Below are positions 2,816-28,518 of a stretch of 28,655 nucleotides of DNA, piece by piece. The notes under the pieces were generated by a model. It saw nothing but the letters and a program-made list of their open reading frames with translations. It was not told where the DNA came from and did not search any database. The position numbers and the translations under genes are program-made. The stretch is from a virus. The DNA is taken from IMG/VR virus record IMGVR_UViG_3300025645_000342, positions 1 to 28,655 of that record; one strand, given 5' to 3'. Each line of letters opens with the position of its first letter. Within the stretch, counting starts at the first letter, position 1.

Positions 2816-3586
2816 ATGCCAATTAAATTAGGAAGTACAGACATCACTACGCTAAAGTTAGGTAGCTCAGATGTATCTCAAGCATATCTTGGAGCAACAC
2901 CTTTGCTTTCGACAAGTTACAACTTCGGTAATTACATTCAACCTGATGGCGTAAATGATATAGGAACTACAGCTTCTTCCATAACTATTAATTGGACAAC
3001 AGATTGGGTAGTATCATTTTGGTTTAAAGGAGATGGTAATAGCAATGCTACAAATGTGTTGCTTTCTTCAAGTATAAGCACAGGATATTATTGGTACATC
3101 AGAAAAGGCTCAACGCCTTATGTTAGGTATCAGTCAGGAGCAAATAATACAAGACAAGATTGGAGTGACGCAGCATTAGCAGGATGGGATGATGGTGATT
3201 GGCATCATTTTTATATGTATAATGTAGGTACGGATGTACACCTTGTTTTTGATGGTATTGATTATGGAGACGGAGGCGCGACAGGGTCACAGGATGGCGT
3301 TAACATTGATTATGTTTTTTATAGAGGCGCGAGCAACACTTTCTATTCAGACCTTGCAATGGATGACATAATTGCAACACAAACAACAGGTAGCGTAACA
3401 CAAGCACAGTCTCTTTATAATGGCGGAGCAGGCGAAAATCCTACTACTGTTTTTGGAGCAACACCTGACTATTGGTACAAGTTTAATGTCACCGATGGCA
3501 CGACAACAATACCCAATAGCGGAAGCGCAGGTTCTAATGACTTAACACTTTCAAACTTTGTTACACCATTTATATTTCTGCACTAA
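2816..3586 (+). CDS. LamG/concanavalin-like appendage protein
   Basis: A 256-residue protein. Residues 1-30 carry three short LGS(T/S)-type repeats (KLGSTDI, KLGSSDV, YLGATPL), a frequent N-terminal virion-anchoring pattern in Bacteroidota phages. Residues about 50-210 look like a laminin-G/concanavalin-type jelly roll: a VVSFWFKGD strand, an SSSIS turn, GDWHHFYMY and VHLVFDGIDYGDG, the usual 'W-H-H ... Y-V-DG' succession. Such domains bind sugars, so a receptor-binding or decorating role is likely. The gene lies one base after the fibre stop and is joined to the next gene by TAATG. The fold is inferred from motif order, without a structure search. Confidence 0.7.
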   Translation: MPIKLGSTDITTLKLGSSDVSQAYLGATPLLSTSYNFGNYIQPDGVNDIGTTASSITINWTTDWVVSFWFKGDGNSNATNVLLSSSISTGYYWYIRKGSTPYVRYQSGANNTRQDWSDAALAGWDDGDWHHFYMYNVGTDVHLVFDGIDYGDGGATGSQDGVNIDYVFYRGASNTFYSDLAMDDIIATQTTGSVTQAQSLYNGGAGENPTTVFGATPDYWYKFNVTDGTTTIPNSGSAGSNDLTLSNFVTPFIFLH

Positions 3587-3801
3587 TGAATAAATACGGA
3601 TATATAACTGACAATACATACGAGGTTGCAGATACAGCAATCACTTGGGATTTTGTTAGATACAACGAGGACGAAACAACAACAGATTTTGTTGGCATCG
3701 AAAGCACAGTTGCGATTGATTCAGACAAGGTTGTGATGTTTGAATCGCCACGTTCATTTAGCGATTGGAAATACGAATTTGAACCAGAAGAAGATATTTA
3801 A
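3586..3801 (+). CDS. Small acidic protein of the appendage operon
   Basis: A 71-residue acidic protein that I do not recognise. It shares one base with both neighbours (TAATG at each end), so it belongs to the same translationally coupled run as the fibre and lectin genes. Predicted strand-rich, with aromatic residues (ITWDFVRYNEDE, DWKYEFEPEEDI). No signal peptide, membrane segment or cysteine. It may be a fibre chaperone or minor virion component, but only position supports this. Confidence 0.6.
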   Translation: MNKYGYITDNTYEVADTAITWDFVRYNEDETTTDFVGIESTVAIDSDKVVMFESPRSFSDWKYEFEPEEDI

Positions 3802-16317: not shown

Positions 16318-16461
16318 ATGGAAGTTTCATTCGGTTTTGTTCACGGCTTTATTTTTGGAATAAACTACTTTGCGCACGATGCAGATGATAGCGTTGAATG
16401 TACTTTTCAGATATTCATTGGAATTTTAGCTATCGAAATATTTTGGAATGAACCTGCTTGA
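16318..16461 (+). CDS. 47-residue hydrophobic protein
   Basis: From ATG 16318 a 47-residue frame reads MEVSFGFVHGFIFGINYFAH and ends IFIGILAIEIFWNEPA. It is rich in Phe, Ile and Gly with two hydrophobic stretches around an acidic centre (DADDSVE), so it may be membrane-associated or a small beta protein. It fills the only gap between 16295 and the sigma-like gene, which it overlaps by 14 nt. Similar small F/G-rich proteins occur in related phages as far as I recall. Confidence 0.55.
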   Translation: MEVSFGFVHGFIFGINYFAHDADDSVECTFQIFIGILAIEIFWNEPA

Positions 16462-16972
16462 AATAGCATACACAACCGAGCGTCATAAAGACTGGATTGT
16501 GATGGCTACAAATCTCGGTGCTGGACATTACGCTGAGGACATTGTGCAGGAAATGTATATCAAGCTGAGTGAGATTAAGAATCCTGAGCGACTAATAGAC
16601 AAAAATAATCCTAATCAGTTGGTTGGTTTTTACGTTTATACAATTATAAGGAGTTTAATAGTTGACCTTCAGCGGGTTCAGAAGCGTACTAAGATGGTAA
16701 GCATCGAATCAATTCGAGCATTGAAAGCATCAGATGTTGATATGGAATTTGAAGCAGAATTTACCAAGAAGCTGGAGGTGATTGAGCAATCAAAAGCAGA
16801 TATGGGTTGGTACGATTTAAAGCTATTTGAACTGTATCACAATGAAGGATTAAGCATACGAAAGCTATCGAAAGAAACGCGCATCAGCGCATCATCAATA
16901 TTTAACACACTAACCAATGCCAAGAGCAAAATCAACGAAGCCTACAACGCGGCGAAAAAAAGCACCGAGTAA
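16448..16972 (+). CDS. Sigma-70-like / ECF-type transcription factor
   Basis: A 174-residue protein with the two-domain layout of short sigma factors. Residues about 11-95 resemble region 2: WIVMATNLGAGHYAEDIVQEMYIKL (the A-E-D-I-V-Q-E core) and YVYTIIRSLIVDLQRVQKR. Residues about 118-170 resemble region 4: DLKLFELYHNEGLSIRKLSKETRISASSIFNTLTNAKSKI (helix-turn-helix). It may redirect host RNA polymerase to phage promoters, and the CGTTTAT sites are natural candidates. Being at the end of the replication block suits an early-to-late switch. A non-sigma HTH regulator is possible but less likely. Confidence 0.7.
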   Translation: MNLLEIAYTTERHKDWIVMATNLGAGHYAEDIVQEMYIKLSEIKNPERLIDKNNPNQLVGFYVYTIIRSLIVDLQRVQKRTKMVSIESIRALKASDVDMEFEAEFTKKLEVIEQSKADMGWYDLKLFELYHNEGLSIRKLSKETRISASSIFNTLTNAKSKINEAYNAAKKSTE

Positions 16973-17934: not shown

Positions 17935-18668
17935 TAGTAAAGGTAATAAATAGTAAAATAGCCGTACCATTTGTTAAAAAAACGCATTATTCAGGTACTG
18001 TTTCTAATACAAGTAATCTTCACTTTGGATGCTTTTTAGATGGTAAAATGCACGGAGTAATGAGTTTTGGTAGTCCAATGGATAAATCAAAAGTACTTCC
18101 ACTTGTTCAACCTTGTTTATGGAATGAAATGTTAGAACTGAATAGAATGGCGTTTGATGATTATCTACCAAAGTATTCAGAAAGTAGATGCATTGCAATT
18201 GCTATTAAATTAATTAAAAAGAATGCACCTCATATAAAATGGATATTATCATTTAGTGATGCAGTTCAATGTGGAGATGGGGCAATATATAGAGCAAGTG
18301 GATTTAAGTTAACAAATGTTAAAAAAAGCACACAGATAATAGAAACTCCAAAAGGTGAACGTGTTACAAGAATGACACTAACGCAAGTGGGAAACGCAAA
18401 AAGAAATAGAATACTAAAAGAGTTAGGATTAAAAGATACAGGAGCATCAAGTATAAATCAATTTTTAAATGCAGGATGTATTAATGTTGTTGGATTTCAA
18501 AATAGATACATTTACTTAATAGATAAAACTTGTAAAATTACAGTTCCTATTCTACCATTTAGTGAAATAGACAAACAAGGTGCAGGAATGTATAAAGGTA
18601 AAAAAATAACCCTCCAAGAGAGGAGGGCTAATTTGAGCGAGAAGGTCGATTCGAACGCCACTTCTTAA
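17913..18668 (+). CDS. Mom-like DNA adenine modification protein
   Basis: A 251-residue protein overlapping the ParB-like gene by 22 nt. Residues about 1-135 match the Mom family (GNAT-like fold; phage Mu Mom makes N6-carbamoylmethyl-adenine): KTHYSGTVSNTSNLHFGCF, GVMSFGSPMDKSKVLPLV, MLELNRMAFDDYLPKYSESR and SFSDAVQCGDGAIYRASGF. The modification shields phage DNA from restriction. Residues about 140-251 are an extra, less familiar region. The gene is visibly AT-rich (about 27-30% GC in two 60-nt lines I counted, against 37% in a line before the ParB-like gene), a sign of transfer. Its last 33 nt overlap a convergent tRNA-like gene, and the last ten residues may be an accidental extension. Confidence 0.75.
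   Translation: MGRAKEIIVKVINSKIAVPFVKKTHYSGTVSNTSNLHFGCFLDGKMHGVMSFGSPMDKSKVLPLVQPCLWNEMLELNRMAFDDYLPKYSESRCIAIAIKLIKKNAPHIKWILSFSDAVQCGDGAIYRASGFKLTNVKKSTQIIETPKGERVTRMTLTQVGNAKRNRILKELGLKDTGASSINQFLNAGCINVVGFQNRYIYLIDKTCKITVPILPFSEIDKQGAGMYKGKKITLQERRANLSEKVDSNATS
18600..18627 (-). terminator. Minus-strand intrinsic terminator after the tRNA-like gene
   Basis: On the minus strand a 6-bp GC-rich stem CCCTCC / GGAGGG with loop TCTCTT is followed by TTATTTTTTT. On the plus strand the stem is followed by CTAATTTGAG, which is not a T run, so the signal points to minus. It lies 9 nt beyond the 3' end of the tRNA-like gene and inside the Mom-like coding region. Confidence 0.75.
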
Positions 18669-18706
18669 TTGGAATATTAAACGTGCAACCATTACACTAC
18701 TCTCGC
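18636..18706 (-). tRNA. tRNA-like gene, possible tRNA-Gly(UCC), odd arms
   Basis: Read on minus, 71 nt fold as a cloverleaf. Acceptor stem: GCGAGAG with TTCTCGC (one G-U). Bases 8-9 are TA. D arm: GTGT-AATGGTT-GCAC with the GG pair. Anticodon stem: TTTAA with TTAAG around an 8-nt loop TATTCCAA. T loop: TTCGAAT. No CCA is encoded. Oddities: the loop has one base too many (UCC is the best anticodon reading), the variable loop is short, and the T stem pairs only as GGCG / CG-A-CC with a bulged A. A host-like promoter and a terminator flank it on the same strand, which argues for expression. It could be a decaying tRNA or a tRNA mimic. Confidence 0.6.
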
Positions 18707-18746: not shown

Positions 18747-19090
18747 CGGAACAGCATAAAAAGGCAGTCATCGAAGCGTTAGAATCTTCGCTTGGAGTGG
18801 TGACATCAGCCTGTAAGAAAGCAGAGGTTGGTCGAACTACATTCTATCAATGGCTAAAAGATGACGCAGAATTTGCAAAGCAAGTTGCAGATATTGAAAA
18901 CGTAGCTTTGGATTTTGCTGAATCACAGCTTCATAAGCAAATACAAGATGGTTCTGCGGCTGCTACAATCTTCTACTTGAAAACCAAAGGTAAGAAGCGA
19001 GGATACATTGAGCGTCAGGAGATTTCACACGAAGGTATTCAGACCTTCCAAATAGTCGAGGATGGCGAATGGGACGATACAGGTAAATAA
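18737..19090 (+). CDS. terS: Terminase small subunit
   Basis: A 117-residue protein. Residues about 19-41 are a helix-turn-helix (LGVVTSACKKAEVGRTTFYQWLKDD), followed by a helical oligomerisation region (QVADIENVALDFAESQLHKQI, then AAATIFYLKTKGKKRGYIER), typical of small terminases, which recognise phage DNA and load the large subunit. The C-terminus is acidic. The gene overlaps the large subunit by 29 nt. The start at 18737 follows a TTTAT-N5-ATG signal and the HTH spacing usual for the family. Confidence 0.85.
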   Translation: MNKTEQHKKAVIEALESSLGVVTSACKKAEVGRTTFYQWLKDDAEFAKQVADIENVALDFAESQLHKQIQDGSAAATIFYLKTKGKKRGYIERQEISHEGIQTFQIVEDGEWDDTGK

Positions 19091-20222
19091 AGTATACACG
19101 CATCTTAGGAAGTCGCCTAAAAAGATAATCGTTGAGCAAGGCGGTACGAGGTCAGGTAAGACGTACAACATTCTGCTTTGGATAATTTTCAATTACTGCA
19201 ATCTCAATAAAGGTAAGACAATAACGATTGCAAGGAAGACATTCCCAGCAGTTCGCTCATCTGTTATGCGTGACTTCTTTGACATCCTCCGCAAGCACAA
19301 TCTATACAGCGAGCAATATCACAACAAGTCAAATAGCGAATACCATCTCAACGGAAACCTGATTGAGTTTATCAGCTTAGACCAGCCGCAGAAGATACGA
19401 GGTCGAAAGCGAGATTTAGCCTTTCTAAACGAGGCAAATGAGTTGTATTGGGAAGATTGGCAGCAGATACTATTTAGGACAACAGGGCGCATCATAATCG
19501 ACTACAATCCATCTGATTCATTTCATTGGATATACGACAAGGTAGTGCCTAGAGATGACTGCTCGTTCCTGCAAACCACATACAAGGACAATCCATACCT
19601 TGACGAAAGTATCATTCGAGAAATCGAAAGGTTGAAAGAAACAGACGAGGACTATTGGCGTATCTACGGACTTGGTGAACGTGGTATGTCAAGAGCAACT
19701 ATATTTCAGTTTGGAATCGTGCAAGAGGTATCCGGTCAGCTACTGTCAACAGGTATGGACTTTGGGTTTACGAATGACCCAACAGCGTTGGTCAAGGTCT
19801 ACAAGAAAGGCAACCAGCTTATCCTTGATGAACTTCTATATCACACCAACCTAACCAACCAAGACATAGCACACAAGTTTGAGGAGTTAGGACTGAACCG
19901 GCTTGACGTAATATATGCGGACTCAGCCGAACCAAAGTCAATAGAGGAACTGCATAGGCTACGTTGGAATGTCAAACCAACAGCAAAAGGTGCGGACAGT
20001 ATTATGGCTGGCATTGATATGCTGAAGAGATACGAGTTGAAGGTCACAGCCAACAGTTTGAACCTAATCAAAGAACTGCAAAACTACAAGTGGACAGAGG
20101 ATAAGAATGGCAACCTACTCAATAAACCTGTGGACAATTTCAATCACGCGATTGATGCGGTGAGGTATGCGGTTTGGAATAGGCTTGCAAATCCGAACTA
20201 CGGAAGTTATAGCATCCGATAA
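19062..20222 (+). CDS. terL: Terminase large subunit (ATPase-nuclease)
   Basis: A 386-residue protein. The N-terminal ATPase has Walker A GGTRSGKT (27-34) and Walker B DLAFLNEANEL with the catalytic Glu. The C-terminal nuclease is RNase-H-like: MDFGFTNDPTALV (first Asp), IYADSAEPKSI (second Asp) and DNFNHAIDAVRYAV (third). It pumps and cuts phage DNA at the portal. The family resembles the PBSX/SPP1-type group (Terminase_3 and relatives), a common but not strict link with headful packaging, which would agree with a circularly permuted contig. It is followed by site D and the tail genes rather than by the portal. Confidence 0.92.
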   Translation: MANGTIQVNKVYTHLRKSPKKIIVEQGGTRSGKTYNILLWIIFNYCNLNKGKTITIARKTFPAVRSSVMRDFFDILRKHNLYSEQYHNKSNSEYHLNGNLIEFISLDQPQKIRGRKRDLAFLNEANELYWEDWQQILFRTTGRIIIDYNPSDSFHWIYDKVVPRDDCSFLQTTYKDNPYLDESIIREIERLKETDEDYWRIYGLGERGMSRATIFQFGIVQEVSGQLLSTGMDFGFTNDPTALVKVYKKGNQLILDELLYHTNLTNQDIAHKFEELGLNRLDVIYADSAEPKSIEELHRLRWNVKPTAKGADSIMAGIDMLKRYELKVTANSLNLIKELQNYKWTEDKNGNLLNKPVDNFNHAIDAVRYAVWNRLANPNYGSYSIR

Positions 20223-20288: not shown

Positions 20289-20984
20289 ATGAAAGTCAAA
20301 TTTCAAGTTCCAGCAAGTCTCAAGGACATTCCTTTGAAGGACTACATCGCATACCAAAAGATATTGGACGCAAACAAGGACGCTCAAGAAAGCGAGTTTG
20401 TGACGATGAAGATGGTCAGCATATTCTGCAACGTCAGTTATGAGGACTTACAGAAACTGAGCCTGACGCAGTATGATGTCGTTGTCCAGATGCTGCAAGA
20501 TGTGTTCGGACAGAAGCCAACATTCAGAAACAGAATCAAGATTGGAGATACTGACTTTGGTTTCATACCGAAGCTGGACGATATTAGTCTGGGTGAGTAT
20601 GTAGACCTTGAAAACTATATGAAGTCACCAACTACCTACCACAAGGCAATGGCTGTCCTTTACAGACCTGTCACCTTGAAGGTTAAGGAAACATATCTTA
20701 TCGAAGATTACGAAGGCTCTGATAAGTACGCTGAGTTCTTTCTGGATTGCGATTTAGAGACAACACTTGGAGCGATGCTTTTTTTTTGGAATTTAGGAAA
20801 AGAATTGCTGAGCGATATGAAGACCTATTTACAGGAGGAATTGAAGACAACGAATATGGAGAGCGAGCACAGTTTGGACAGCGATGGGGCTGGTATCAAT
20901 CAATCGTTCATCTGGCAGATGGAAGCGTCACTCGAATTGATGAAGTCACAAAAATGGCACTCCATAAATGTCTGCTTAAACTGA
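20289..20984 (+). CDS. Tail assembly chaperone, short form (G-like)
   Basis: A 231-residue protein, MKVKFQVPASLKDIPLKDYI onward. Residues 1-165 are a helical/strand domain (SIFCNVSYEDLQKLSLTQYD; FIPKLDDISLGEYVDLENYM) ending in GAMLFF, where codons run over a T9 tract. In frame the protein goes on as WNLGKELLSDMKTYLQ and ends with INQSFIWQMEASLELMKSQK. I read this as the G-like product of a G/GT pair. Such proteins hold the tape measure ready for tube assembly. The 198 nt after the T9 tract code in two frames. The family link to Bacteroidota tail chaperones is from memory. Confidence 0.7.
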   Translation: MKVKFQVPASLKDIPLKDYIAYQKILDANKDAQESEFVTMKMVSIFCNVSYEDLQKLSLTQYDVVVQMLQDVFGQKPTFRNRIKIGDTDFGFIPKLDDISLGEYVDLENYMKSPTTYHKAMAVLYRPVTLKVKETYLIEDYEGSDKYAEFFLDCDLETTLGAMLFFWNLGKELLSDMKTYLQEELKTTNMESEHSLDSDGAGINQSFIWQMEASLELMKSQKWHSINVCLN

Positions 20985-21046
20985 TGTTTGATAAGCAGAA
21001 AACAGAAATCGAAAGCAACGAGTTAAAACGCAAGCAAAGAGGATGA
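20289..21046 (+). CDS. Tail assembly chaperone, -1 frameshift fusion (GT-like)
   Basis: Slipping -1 at T-TTT-TTT within the T9 tract (20779-20787) joins the first 166 codons to a second frame starting LEFRKRIAERYEDLFTGG and containing FGQRWGWYQSIVHLADG, TRIDEVTKMALHKCL and KQKTEIESNELKRK. The fusion has 252 residues. The second frame is open from 20735 to 21046 but has no ATG before its conserved WGWY part, so it needs the frameshift. The Q-R-W-G-W-Y ... H-K-C-L pattern is familiar from chaperone T domains next to Bacteroidota tail genes. A sequencing error in the homopolymer is the main alternative. Confidence 0.65.
20779..20787 (+). promoter_or_regulatory. T9 slippery site for -1 frameshifting
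   Basis: Nine T in a row follow GC and precede GGAATT. In the upstream frame the codons are CTT TTT TTT TGG, so T-TTT-TTT is a perfect X-XXY-YYZ heptamer. The next codon in the -1 frame is TTG. Polymerase slippage adding one U would give the same fusion. I saw no obvious downstream pseudoknot, but I could not fold the RNA. Confidence 0.65.
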
Positions 21047-21507
21047 GACAATTTTACACAGTAACGCAGAAGCTACACGACTTATTGATAGCAGATAATA
21101 ATGTCAACGTGGTGACGATAGGAGATGTTTCAGAGGCTGATTTAGCGAAGCAAAGTATTTTTCCATTGGCTCATATTATCGTTGGCGATACGTCTTTAAA
21201 TGGCTCGACAATGACCTTGAACTTTACGGTTATATGTATGGATGTGGTTGACATCAACAAGAGCCAACTCAGAAATGAGACTGAGCCGTTTTACGGAATG
21301 GATAACTTGCAAGATATCTGGAACACGCAGCTTCAAGTTTGTAACCGATTGGTTGAGCAGCTACGCAGAGGCACAGCTTTCAGCAACAACTTTCAATTGA
21401 CTGATTCAATTACAGCAACACCATTCCAAGATAGGTTTGAAAATCTGCTTGCTGGTTGGGCAATAGACATTGCTATTGATGTACCGAATTCAGAAATCTG
21501 TATCTGA
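21043..21507 (+). CDS. Tail terminator / completion protein candidate
   Basis: A 154-residue protein overlapping the frameshift product by 4 nt (ATGA). The layout YTVTQKLHDLLIADNNVNVVTIGDVSEADLAKQSIFPLAHIIV, then STMTLNFTVICMDVVD and a helix, fits the small alpha/beta terminator proteins (lambda gpU-like or HK97 gp10-neighbour type) that cap the tube. TPFQDRFENLLAGWAIDIAIDV at the end agrees with this fold. The assignment is by motif order and position between chaperone and tail-completion genes. Confidence 0.6.
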   Translation: MRQFYTVTQKLHDLLIADNNVNVVTIGDVSEADLAKQSIFPLAHIIVGDTSLNGSTMTLNFTVICMDVVDINKSQLRNETEPFYGMDNLQDIWNTQLQVCNRLVEQLRRGTAFSNNFQLTDSITATPFQDRFENLLAGWAIDIAIDVPNSEICI

Positions 21508-22082
21508 TGGCTGGCAGAGTAAAAGGTGCAAGAGATAAAGCGTTAGCTGACTTTGCTGATAACGTGGTTCGATTAGCTAAAATCAACGTGGGTAAAACCT
21601 ACACAGCTAAAAATTCACGCGGTAAAAGCTACAAGAAGCGCATTGATAATAGCGGTAAGCTACGCAATTCAATTACATCTGAATTAAAGACAACCACTAA
21701 AGATGGAAGATTCAGTAAAGGATTCATCATCTTTAAGATGTTGGAGTACGGTCTGAATGTAGATAAGGGCAGACGAGCAGGTAAGGGAGTCCCTCCGAAA
21801 GTCTTGATTGATTGGATTAAGAAAAAGCCGTTGAGGATTCGTGACCTAGAGACAGGCTCATTTGTAAAGCAAACTGAGTCAAGGGTGAAAGGACTAGCAT
21901 ACGTTATCAATCGAAAGATTAAAAAGTATGGCATTCCAGCTACTAACTTCTTCACCGATGCTTACGAAAGCCAAGAGGAAAAACTATTCAGTCAACTTCA
22001 AGAAGCCATTGCTCAAGACAACATAGAATATATTGAATCACAAATAGACCTACTCAATGCCAACAGCACTAAAAAATCATAG
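21507..22082 (+). CDS. HK97-gp10-like tail completion protein
   Basis: A 191-residue basic protein. KALADFADNVVRLAKINVGK, then SGKLRNSITSEL and FKMLEYGLNVDKGRRAGKGVPPKVLIDWIKKK give the HK97 gp10-like pattern (helix, S-G-x-L-R, Y-G-x-x-V/x-x-G-R). Such proteins join head and tail or cap the tail. It shares its first base with the preceding stop and overlaps the next gene by 26 nt. Confidence 0.68.
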   Translation: MAGRVKGARDKALADFADNVVRLAKINVGKTYTAKNSRGKSYKKRIDNSGKLRNSITSELKTTTKDGRFSKGFIIFKMLEYGLNVDKGRRAGKGVPPKVLIDWIKKKPLRIRDLETGSFVKQTESRVKGLAYVINRKIKKYGIPATNFFTDAYESQEEKLFSQLQEAIAQDNIEYIESQIDLLNANSTKKS

Positions 22083-26601: not shown

Positions 26602-26741
26602 TAAAGGACATAATTGAATTACTCAAAACAGATGATTGGCACGATGGCGGTCAGTTGACTCAATTTGCAAAGGGCAAGTATAAAGTGCCGCAGAACTTAA
26701 CCGAATTTAAAAACTACTTCAAACTACAAACTAATGGCTGA
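26598..26741 (+). CDS. 47-residue protein before the tape measure
   Basis: From the ATG at 26598 (ATGA overlap with the hub gene) to 26741, overlapping the tape measure by 8 nt. The product starts MIKDIIELLKTDDWHDGGQL and ends FKNYFKLQTNG. Coupling at both ends and the exact filling of the gap support a gene. It looks like a small globular tail protein; function unknown. Confidence 0.6.
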   Translation: MIKDIIELLKTDDWHDGGQLTQFAKGKYKVPQNLTEFKNYFKLQTNG

Positions 26742-28518
26742 AACAATAAAAAAGGTAGTTGAGATTGAGATTGATGTTGATAGCGGTGATATTAAACAAG
26801 TAGGCAAAGATGTAGAAGGCGTTGGTAAGGACTTAAAGAAAGCTGAAAAAGGCACATCAGGGCTTGCTGGTGGATTCAAGAAAGTCGGTACAGCTATAAA
26901 AGCAGCAGGCATCGGATTACTGATTGCCGCTTTAGGAACTTTGGTTGAGGTATTTAGAAGCAATCAAGGGGCAATAGACGCTTTTGAAACAGGTCTGACA
27001 GCTTTGAAAATAGCTTCAAATGATTTGTTTAAATTCTTAGAAGGAAATGTCGGTGCTGTTGTAGATTATTTTAAACGAATCTTTGAAGACCCTAAGGAAG
27101 CATTAATAGACTTTGCTGATGCGTTCAAGAAAAACATACAAGAACGCTTTGATTCTTATCTTGATACATTAGGCTTTTTAGCGAGTGCTGTTAAGAAGGT
27201 ATTTAGTGGAGACTTTGCGGGTGCGATGGATGATGTTAAGGCAGCAGGTAAGGAATCATTAGATGTTCTAACAGGTGTAAATAATTCCTTTGACAAAGCA
27301 ACGGAGGTAGTAAATGAAGCGGTTACAGCAATAAGTGACTACACATCGGAAACATTAAAAAGCGCGAATGCTTCTGTTGAACTTAGTAAGGCAGCAGAAA
27401 TTGCAGTTATAAAGCAACAAGCCTTAATTCAGGAGTTTGACAGGGCGGCTGAACTTCAAAGACAGATTCGAGATGATGAAACAAAATCATTTGAAGAGCG
27501 CATCGCAGCAAACGAAAAGCTAGGTGAAATACTCAAAGACCAAATCGAAGCAGAAACAGCGTTAGTTGATATTCAACAAAGAGCAATCGAGGATAGATTA
27601 TCCAAAGGGTTAATACCTGAGTTTGAAGCTAAAAAAGAACTGTTACAATTAGATACCGAGAGGCTTGATATATTAGCAAAGGTCACAGGTTTTGAATCTG
27701 AACAGCTAATCAATAGAAACAGCCTACTAAGGGAACAAGCAGATATACAAAACGAGATACAACAACAAGCGATTGACCGGCAAAAAGAATTAGACGGCAT
27801 TAGCCTTGAGGTAATGGAAGACGGCATCGATAAAGAGTTGATGATGTCAGCTATGAAGTACGATGCTTTATACGCACAAGCCGAAGGTAATGCAGAACTG
27901 CAAACCCAAATAACAGAGGCGCAAGAAAAAGCCGCGCTTGAAATAGTTGAAAAATACGAAGATGAAGCATTAAAAAAGCGAAAAGAAAATATAGAAGAAG
28001 CTACTAAAGCAACAACCGCAGTAACAAAAGCAGGTATTGAATCTGTAATAAGTTTGAACGATGCCTTAGTTGATAGCCAACTTGTAACAGCTAAGAAAGG
28101 TTTTCAAATTGCGAAGACTTTATCTATTGCAAACGCCACGATATCAACAGCGGAAGCGAGTATTGCGGCTTATAAGTCTGTGGTTGGCATTCCTTATGTA
28201 GGTCCAGTCCTCGCCCCTATTGCGGCTGGTATTGCAGTAGCGGCTGGTGTTGCTCAAATCTCATCTATCGCAAATCAGCAATTCAATACAAGCGGAGGAG
28301 GTGCGCCATCAGTTGGTGGCGGAGGAGCATCAACACCATCAGCAGGCGGAGGAGGTGCGCCACAATTCAACACAGTCGGAACAAGCGGATTTAATCAAGT
28401 GGCTGGCAGTATTGCCAATCAGAATCAAGAGCCTGTAAAAGCCTATGTTGTATCGACAGATATAACGAGCCAGCAGAGCCTTGACAGAAATAGCAGAAAC
28501 AAAGCAAGTTTTCCTTAA
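26734..28518 (+). CDS. Tape measure protein
   Basis: A 594-residue protein. An N-terminal helix (VEIEIDVDSGDIKQVGKDVEGVGKDL) leads to a hydrophobic segment at about 52-72 (AIKAAGIGLLIAALGTLVEVF). A long charged coiled-coil region occupies about 210-430. A second hydrophobic stretch at about 480-515 (VGIPYVGPVLAPIAAGIAVAAGVAQ) precedes a Gly/Ser-rich tail and the ending KAYVVSTDITSQQSLDRNSR, which I know from Bacteroidota tape measures. Tape length sets tail length; 594 residues at about 0.15 nm each predict a short tail near 90 nm. No lysozyme domain is seen. Confidence 0.82.
   Translation: MAETIKKVVEIEIDVDSGDIKQVGKDVEGVGKDLKKAEKGTSGLAGGFKKVGTAIKAAGIGLLIAALGTLVEVFRSNQGAIDAFETGLTALKIASNDLFKFLEGNVGAVVDYFKRIFEDPKEALIDFADAFKKNIQERFDSYLDTLGFLASAVKKVFSGDFAGAMDDVKAAGKESLDVLTGVNNSFDKATEVVNEAVTAISDYTSETLKSANASVELSKAAEIAVIKQQALIQEFDRAAELQRQIRDDETKSFEERIAANEKLGEILKDQIEAETALVDIQQRAIEDRLSKGLIPEFEAKKELLQLDTERLDILAKVTGFESEQLINRNSLLREQADIQNEIQQQAIDRQKELDGISLEVMEDGIDKELMMSAMKYDALYAQAEGNAELQTQITEAQEKAALEIVEKYEDEALKKRKENIEEATKATTAVTKAGIESVISLNDALVDSQLVTAKKGFQIAKTLSIANATISTAEASIAAYKSVVGIPYVGPVLAPIAAGIAVAAGVAQISSIANQQFNTSGGGAPSVGGGGASTPSAGGGGAPQFNTVGTSGFNQVAGSIANQNQEPVKAYVVSTDITSQQSLDRNSRNKASFP

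Follow-up and report, generated by a model that had tools for sequence, protein, structure and literature searches.

The locus and its two overlapping reading frames

The window analysed here spans positions 1 to 28,655 of the IMG/VR virus record IMGVR_UViG_3300025645_000342, on which searches with PHROGs and Pfam profiles identify terminase, portal and tape measure genes. The gene that concerns us lies 3' of the terminase gene and 5' of the neck and tail genes, about 5.7 kb from the tape measure gene, and contains a run of nine T residues (T9), the only run of A or T of at least nine nucleotides in the window. The features of the region are the following:

19062..20222, + strand: terminase large subunit gene (PF04466, E 6.9e-25), directly 5' of the T9 gene
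20289..20984, + strand: zero-frame ORF of 231 aa (phrog_32199), with an N-terminal domain (residues 1-166) and an alternative C-terminal tail
20779..20787, + strand: T9 tract, the putative slippage site, in frame C TT.TTT.TTT.T GG; exactly T9 in 219/219 homologous contexts
20786..21046, + strand: -1 frame C-terminal domain of 86 aa (LEFRKR...WGWYQSI...KRKQRG), entered at T9; phrog_38404 in 8/92 members
20787..20984, + strand: zero-frame alternative C-terminus of 65 aa, overlapping the -1 domain; open in all 207 complete homologues
20792..20797, + strand: TTTAGG, 4 nt 3' of T9, read as F-R in the -1 frame and L-G in the zero frame
21043..21507, + strand: downstream neighbour of 154 aa, function unknown (phrog_30964)
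21507..22082, + strand: tail completion/Neck1-like protein (phrog_5, E 3.5e-4)
26734..28518, + strand: tape measure protein (phrog_2854, E 3.8e-13, plus others)

The initial annotation had placed the T9 tract at the point where two overlapping frames meet, and had described a -1 frame open from 20735 to 21046 without any ATG ahead of its WGWYQSI region, together with a zero frame that continues for a long distance past the tract. All of this is found in the sequence, the zero frame running on for 65 codons and a stop. In the zero frame the tract and its flanks are read as CTT TTT TTT TGG (L F F W), and the site of the frame shift falls at codon 166 of the 231-codon ORF, which gives GAMLFF-LEFRK as the junction of the -1 fusion. 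The stop codon of the -1 frame and the start codon of the next gene overlap as ATGA (21043-21046).

The N-terminal/zero-frame ORF matches phrog_32199, a family of unknown function (E 3.7e-19). The AlphaFold2 model of the zero-frame protein has a mean pLDDT of 82.7, with values of about 90 or more across most of residues 10-165; a helix predicted at residues 156-195 runs through the slip site, and the tail past approximately residue 195 is variable among homologues and modeled with low confidence. The -1 domain is modeled as an all-helical structure with a mean pLDDT of 91.

Two further elements of the window may be mentioned. An ORF at 16448-16972, upstream of the terminase gene, occupies a place resembling that of P12024S_33, a gene with sigma-70 region 2; the resemblance is one of position only, and a phage sigma factor, if present, would bear on the transcription of late genes. 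ARAGORN reports a tRNA-like element on the minus strand at 18635-18706, with an undetermined type and a two-base anticodon, which is probably spurious.

Conservation of the T9 tract and of both frames

Homologues were sought in viral contigs, bacterial genomes and phage records, and both domains were placed by profile; identical contexts were dropped and no more than the 80 best loci of each scan were retained, so that the collection is a large sample rather than a census. Among the matches listed, all 219 distinct homologous contexts carry exactly nine T, with the -1 frame encoding the second domain, and no fused, T8 or T10 version occurs among them. These contexts, which belong to phage contigs, to prophage or MAG contigs and to two cultured phages of Nonlabens, P12024S and P12024L, extend down to about 31% protein identity, the level at which the two Nonlabens phages stand; the isolate contigs of Galbibacter (pacificus) CAA-3 and Flavobacterium MFBS3-15 are also among the carriers. 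In the rest of the same loci, 15 runs of T9 or longer were counted in 1.27 Mb, i.e. approximately one per 85 kb, and since the tract is exact in 219/219 contexts against this background, its presence cannot be attributed to chance. Over 200 related phages that infect marine Bacteroidota thus carry T9 without any alteration. The residue ahead of the tract is V, L, I or S, and its codon is always GTT, CTT, ATT or AGT. In one clade (one origin, 8 tips) the tract has moved to another codon register and still comprises nine T.

The zero frame was evaluated on 92 representatives of less than 80% identity, with the expectation obtained by synonymous shuffling of the -1 frame. It remains open for at least 25 codons past T9 in 92/92 representatives (about 47 expected) and for at least 50 codons in 90/92 (about 24 expected), and all 207 complete homologues retain it as an open frame, although in P12024S the zero-frame tail amounts to 25 codons in total. 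The first residues of this tail are conserved beyond what the -1 frame would impose: one Leu, for instance, is present in 88/90 sequences, with a zero-frame column homozygosity of 0.96 compared to no more than 0.49 in simulation. The synonymous diversity of the -1 frame, relative to background, is 0.92 upstream of T9, falls to 0 at the three slip codons, rises to 0.40-0.49 in the 20 codons that follow and to about 0.65-0.71 up to codon 60, and reaches 0.71-0.81 beyond. Because the zero frame is kept open beyond expectation and its first residues are conserved beyond the shadow of the -1 frame, we infer from the comparison that it is also under selection, as is the -1 frame, whose domain sequence is conserved among the homologues.

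Homopolymers are prone to indels both in replication and in sequencing, and the record of a cultured phage, Flavobacterium phage 6H, contains an indel-like break in a related gene, which raises the question of whether T9 could be phase-variable, erroneous (a DNA indel or a sequencing error), or part of a decaying gene. We regard this as next to impossible: the run is T9 in 219/219 contexts and never T8 or T10, both frames are selected, and the same T9 recurs in cultured isolates. For the family, sequencing error and phase variation are refuted by the constant length of the run. The initial annotation had called for an alignment of homologues covering both frames and the T run, and had named a different tract length in relatives, or the loss of one of the frames, as outcomes that would refute it; the alignment reveals neither.

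The hexamer TTTAGG is also nearly invariant: the F codon is TTT in 205/205 sequences and the R codon is AGG in 169 of about 174. It contains a TAG (20794-20796) that lies in the +1 frame, two codons past T9, and the +1 frame is shut within three codons of T9 in 96% of homologues, compared to 63% expected. We considered a selected signal, but conservation of F-R in the -1 frame and of L-G in the zero frame already forces the six bases. The hexamer and its stop may thus be a by-product, probably, of two overlapping codes, even though the stop would also truncate U8 transcripts.

The fused product and its relatives

Starting from a Foldseek match with Flavobacterium phage 6H, we arrived at homologues in Duneviridae and in a phage of Microcystis that are encoded by a single ORF. 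When the -1 fusion is compared with them by hhalign, the alignment (98.2%, E 4.4e-14) covers 219 columns and spans the slip junction, and it is because of this end-to-end agreement across the slip point that we take the fusion to be a genuine protein, as judged from homology. The relatives in question, namely Flavobacterium phages 23T and laban6-1 and Cellulophaga phage Ingeline among the Duneviridae, and Microcystis phage Mea-Yong924-1, possess the same two domains in the same order, and in Duneviridae the next gene again encodes about 150 aa. They differ in having one continuous ORF, which gives the long form only, and at the junction they exhibit neither T9 nor a long alternative frame. In Ingeline the single-ORF homologue is situated between the adaptor and the tape measure gene.

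In the record of phage 6H (KC959568, 10048-10927), gp10 ends early after an indel-like difference from 23T and FPSV-D15, and is followed by about 300 nt without annotation before the next gene, where close relatives are annotated with one ORF of 293 aa. It seems that either the sequence is in error at this point or the gene is genuinely broken in this one strain.

It could be argued that the -1 domain is made as a separate protein, by an internal start or by re-initiation, without any fusion. TTG codons do occur in the -1 frame of some homologues, and the annotation of P12024S contains a separate ORF 39. However, there is no ATG, GTG or TTG in the -1 frame ahead of WGWY in 92/216 homologues, and in 25/216 a -1 stop codon lies 2-6 nt 5' of T9. 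Moreover, the single-ORF homologues are contiguous, and a separate protein would leave T9 unexplained. We therefore hold this alternative to be very improbable, and we reject an independent start of the -1 ORF on the positions of start and stop codons; to judge from the homologues compared, the -1 frame can be entered only close to T9. The two cultured Nonlabens phages (genes 38/39 of P12024S and 40/41 of P12024L) share the same T9 and the same -1 layout, directly after the terminase gene, and differ in being annotated as encoding two separate hypothetical proteins and in the shortness of the zero-frame tail. Given the T9 and the -1 layout, the P12024S pair is to be read as one gene with a fused product, not as two proteins.

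Altogether, the proposal of the initial annotation that a programmed -1 shift produces two C-termini, one of them fused, receives strong support: T9 and both frames are conserved, and the single-ORF homologues correspond to the fusion.

The slipping machinery and the role of the two products

We propose that one phage gene gives rise to two proteins, both of which start with the same N-terminal domain of 166 residues. Faithful copying of the tract (U9) would yield the zero-frame protein with its helical tail. A slip of RNA polymerase that adds one U (U10) would lead ordinary translation into the -1 frame and yield a 252-residue protein that ends in the WGWY helical domain, the form that related phages encode in one uninterrupted ORF, and U8 transcripts would be expected to terminate two codons past T9. 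Such behavior has precedents, as the RNA polymerase of E. coli slips on seven or more T, with insertions outnumbering deletions (PMC6260861), and nine A or T is an established length for slippage (PMC1088944; PMC5009743). In the T9 transcript it is the insertion of one U that opens the -1 frame.

The initial annotation had considered slippage of the polymerase and of the ribosome equally possible. Both remain possible in principle, but the comparative data do not leave them equal. A change of the eighth T to C would alter neither protein, the zero frame still reading Phe and the -1 frame Leu, and would preserve a slippery heptamer for the ribosome in the form of U_UUU_UUC, while breaking the run for RNA polymerase. 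Such a C is found in 0/188 sequences, with no changes inferred, whereas a doubly silent T/C site in a Leu codon 13 codons further on is T in 65 and C in 54 sequences, with 31 parsimony changes, and three other doubly silent control sites show 16-26 changes (16-31 for the four best-sampled controls together). Likewise, the Phe codons of the slip site are TTT in 207/207 sequences without a single change, compared to 19-31% TTC and 21-37 parsimony changes in seven conserved Phe columns of the N-terminal domain. The purity of the run is thus maintained even where its interruption would be silent, which satisfies one criterion for transcriptional slippage. In E. coli, U_UU.C is shiftier than U_UU.U among tetramers, and among heptamers all-pyrimidine or all-purine ZZN codons are best (PMC4066793); a ribosomal site should therefore tolerate C at the eighth T. 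Since this silent position is never C, slippage of RNA polymerase on T9, rather than of the ribosome, is in our opinion the likely source of the -1 fusion, an inference made in the absence of RNA or peptide data, and the level of slippage is likewise inferred.

The main rival is ribosomal frameshifting, alone or added to polymerase slippage. In the former case, a -1 shift at U_UUU_UUU would suffice, and T9 would be overlong merely through amino-acid constraint on both sides. Indeed, T_TTT_TTT is a legitimate slippery heptamer of the X_XXY_YYZ type that lies in the right frame in all homologues, and the flanks alone (V/L before the tract; W/Y in the zero frame and L in the -1 frame after it) require T at positions 1 and 9, which deprives these two positions of weight as evidence for the polymerase. 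Most G/GT genes are also known to rely on ribosomal -1 frameshifting (PMC5009743). Furthermore, the codon-shiftiness data from E. coli may not hold in Flavobacteriia. On the other hand, the ribosomal explanation has to face the eighth T, which is never C although that substitution would alter neither protein and, in E. coli, UUC slips at least as readily, as well as the retention of nine T after the change of register, even if that change is a single event. Neither is there any signal of RNA structure around T9 in 60-nt windows from -150 to +165 of the 92 representatives, where the mean z-score is near 0; pseudoknots were not included in this calculation. Lambda-type ribosomal sites can, however, work without strong structures. 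On balance, we consider a purely ribosomal shift unlikely, though not to be dismissed. Less likely still is a combination, in which the polymerase would supply most of the fusion and the ribosome would add to it: the sequence permits each, and there are IS clusters where both may operate (PMC4066793), but the data can be explained without a ribosomal contribution. Polymerase slippage remains our preferred explanation.

What the two proteins do can only be inferred. Searches of the products of the T9 gene against Pfam and NCBIfam gave no credible match, and sequence searches of PHROGs and the PDB gave just unknown families or weak matches, including weak N-terminal matches to phrog_166, annotated as 'tail protein'. 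Fold comparison of the models with the PDB found no match. In BFVD the matches were uncharacterised phage proteins, proteins of P12024S and Flavobacterium phage 6H, and some weak ones named tail assembly chaperone (E 0.04 and 0.43), so that the predicted folds are weakly consistent with tail assembly chaperones.

Phage lambda gpG/gpGT and their relatives in long-tailed phages offer the closest parallel: there too, two proteins have a common N-terminus, the longer one arises when the reading frame shifts by -1 towards the 3' end of the first ORF, and the gene is located among the structural genes that precede the tape measure gene. In contrast to lambda, where the ribosome slips on heptamers, we find an invariant T9 with silent-site evidence for the polymerase, a conserved zero-frame tail that overlaps the -1 domain for about 60 codons, a position with terminase on one side and the neck genes on the other, the tape measure gene following some 5.7 kb further on, so that the positional criterion for G/GT (between the major tail protein and tape measure genes) is not met, and no sequence similarity to the known chaperone families. 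G/GT-type products are characterised by their binding to the tape measure protein and the major tail protein, and by not forming part of the virion. We found no virion proteomics placing a homologue in or out of the particle in those parts of the flavobacterial phage papers that were available to us. The comparison with G/GT made by the initial annotation thus holds as an analogy, and membership is unproven, given the different gene order and the lack of a match to any known chaperone family. By analogy, a two-product tail-assembly chaperone nonetheless appears the most likely role, with modest confidence; the pair would probably work like gpG/gpGT, in a set ratio. Taken as a whole, a two-protein gene that operates by polymerase slippage and probably encodes a G/GT-like pair of chaperones is, we believe, a likely explanation of the locus and the best one.

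Conserved, unbroken runs of about nine A or T in coding regions, with a second frame in use, are also known from Shigella mxiE and spa13/spa33, Thermus thermophilus dnaX and several IS elements, and in T. thermophilus dnaX a stop codon of an alternative frame likewise follows just past the run. All of these are genes of cells or of IS elements, whereas here the run belongs to a gene of the phage structural region across a large clade, and about 60 codons are read in two frames. In the tail genes of phages, recoding is known in its ribosomal form. Neither transcriptional slippage on T9 nor the two-product tail gene of phages is new in itself, but we found no report of transcriptional slippage as a route to two-product tail genes in a literature search that did not cover most subscription journals. 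It seems fairly probable that, in a large clade of phages of Bacteroidota, the ratio of a tail-region (probably chaperone) protein to its longer form is set by slippage of RNA polymerase on an invariant T9 in place of the lambda-type ribosomal frameshift, with the unslipped product as the short form and the slipped product as the full-length protein of the relatives. If so, phages can exchange the ribosomal route for that of the polymerase and vice versa, as is the case for bacterial dnaX. A silent T-to-C substitution at the eighth T would separate the two. It would also follow that annotation, which splits the gene in the records of the cultured P12024 phages, misses a two-product design. In P12024S, genes 38 and 39 are located at 3001-3695 of its locus, and the same split is present in the P12024L record.
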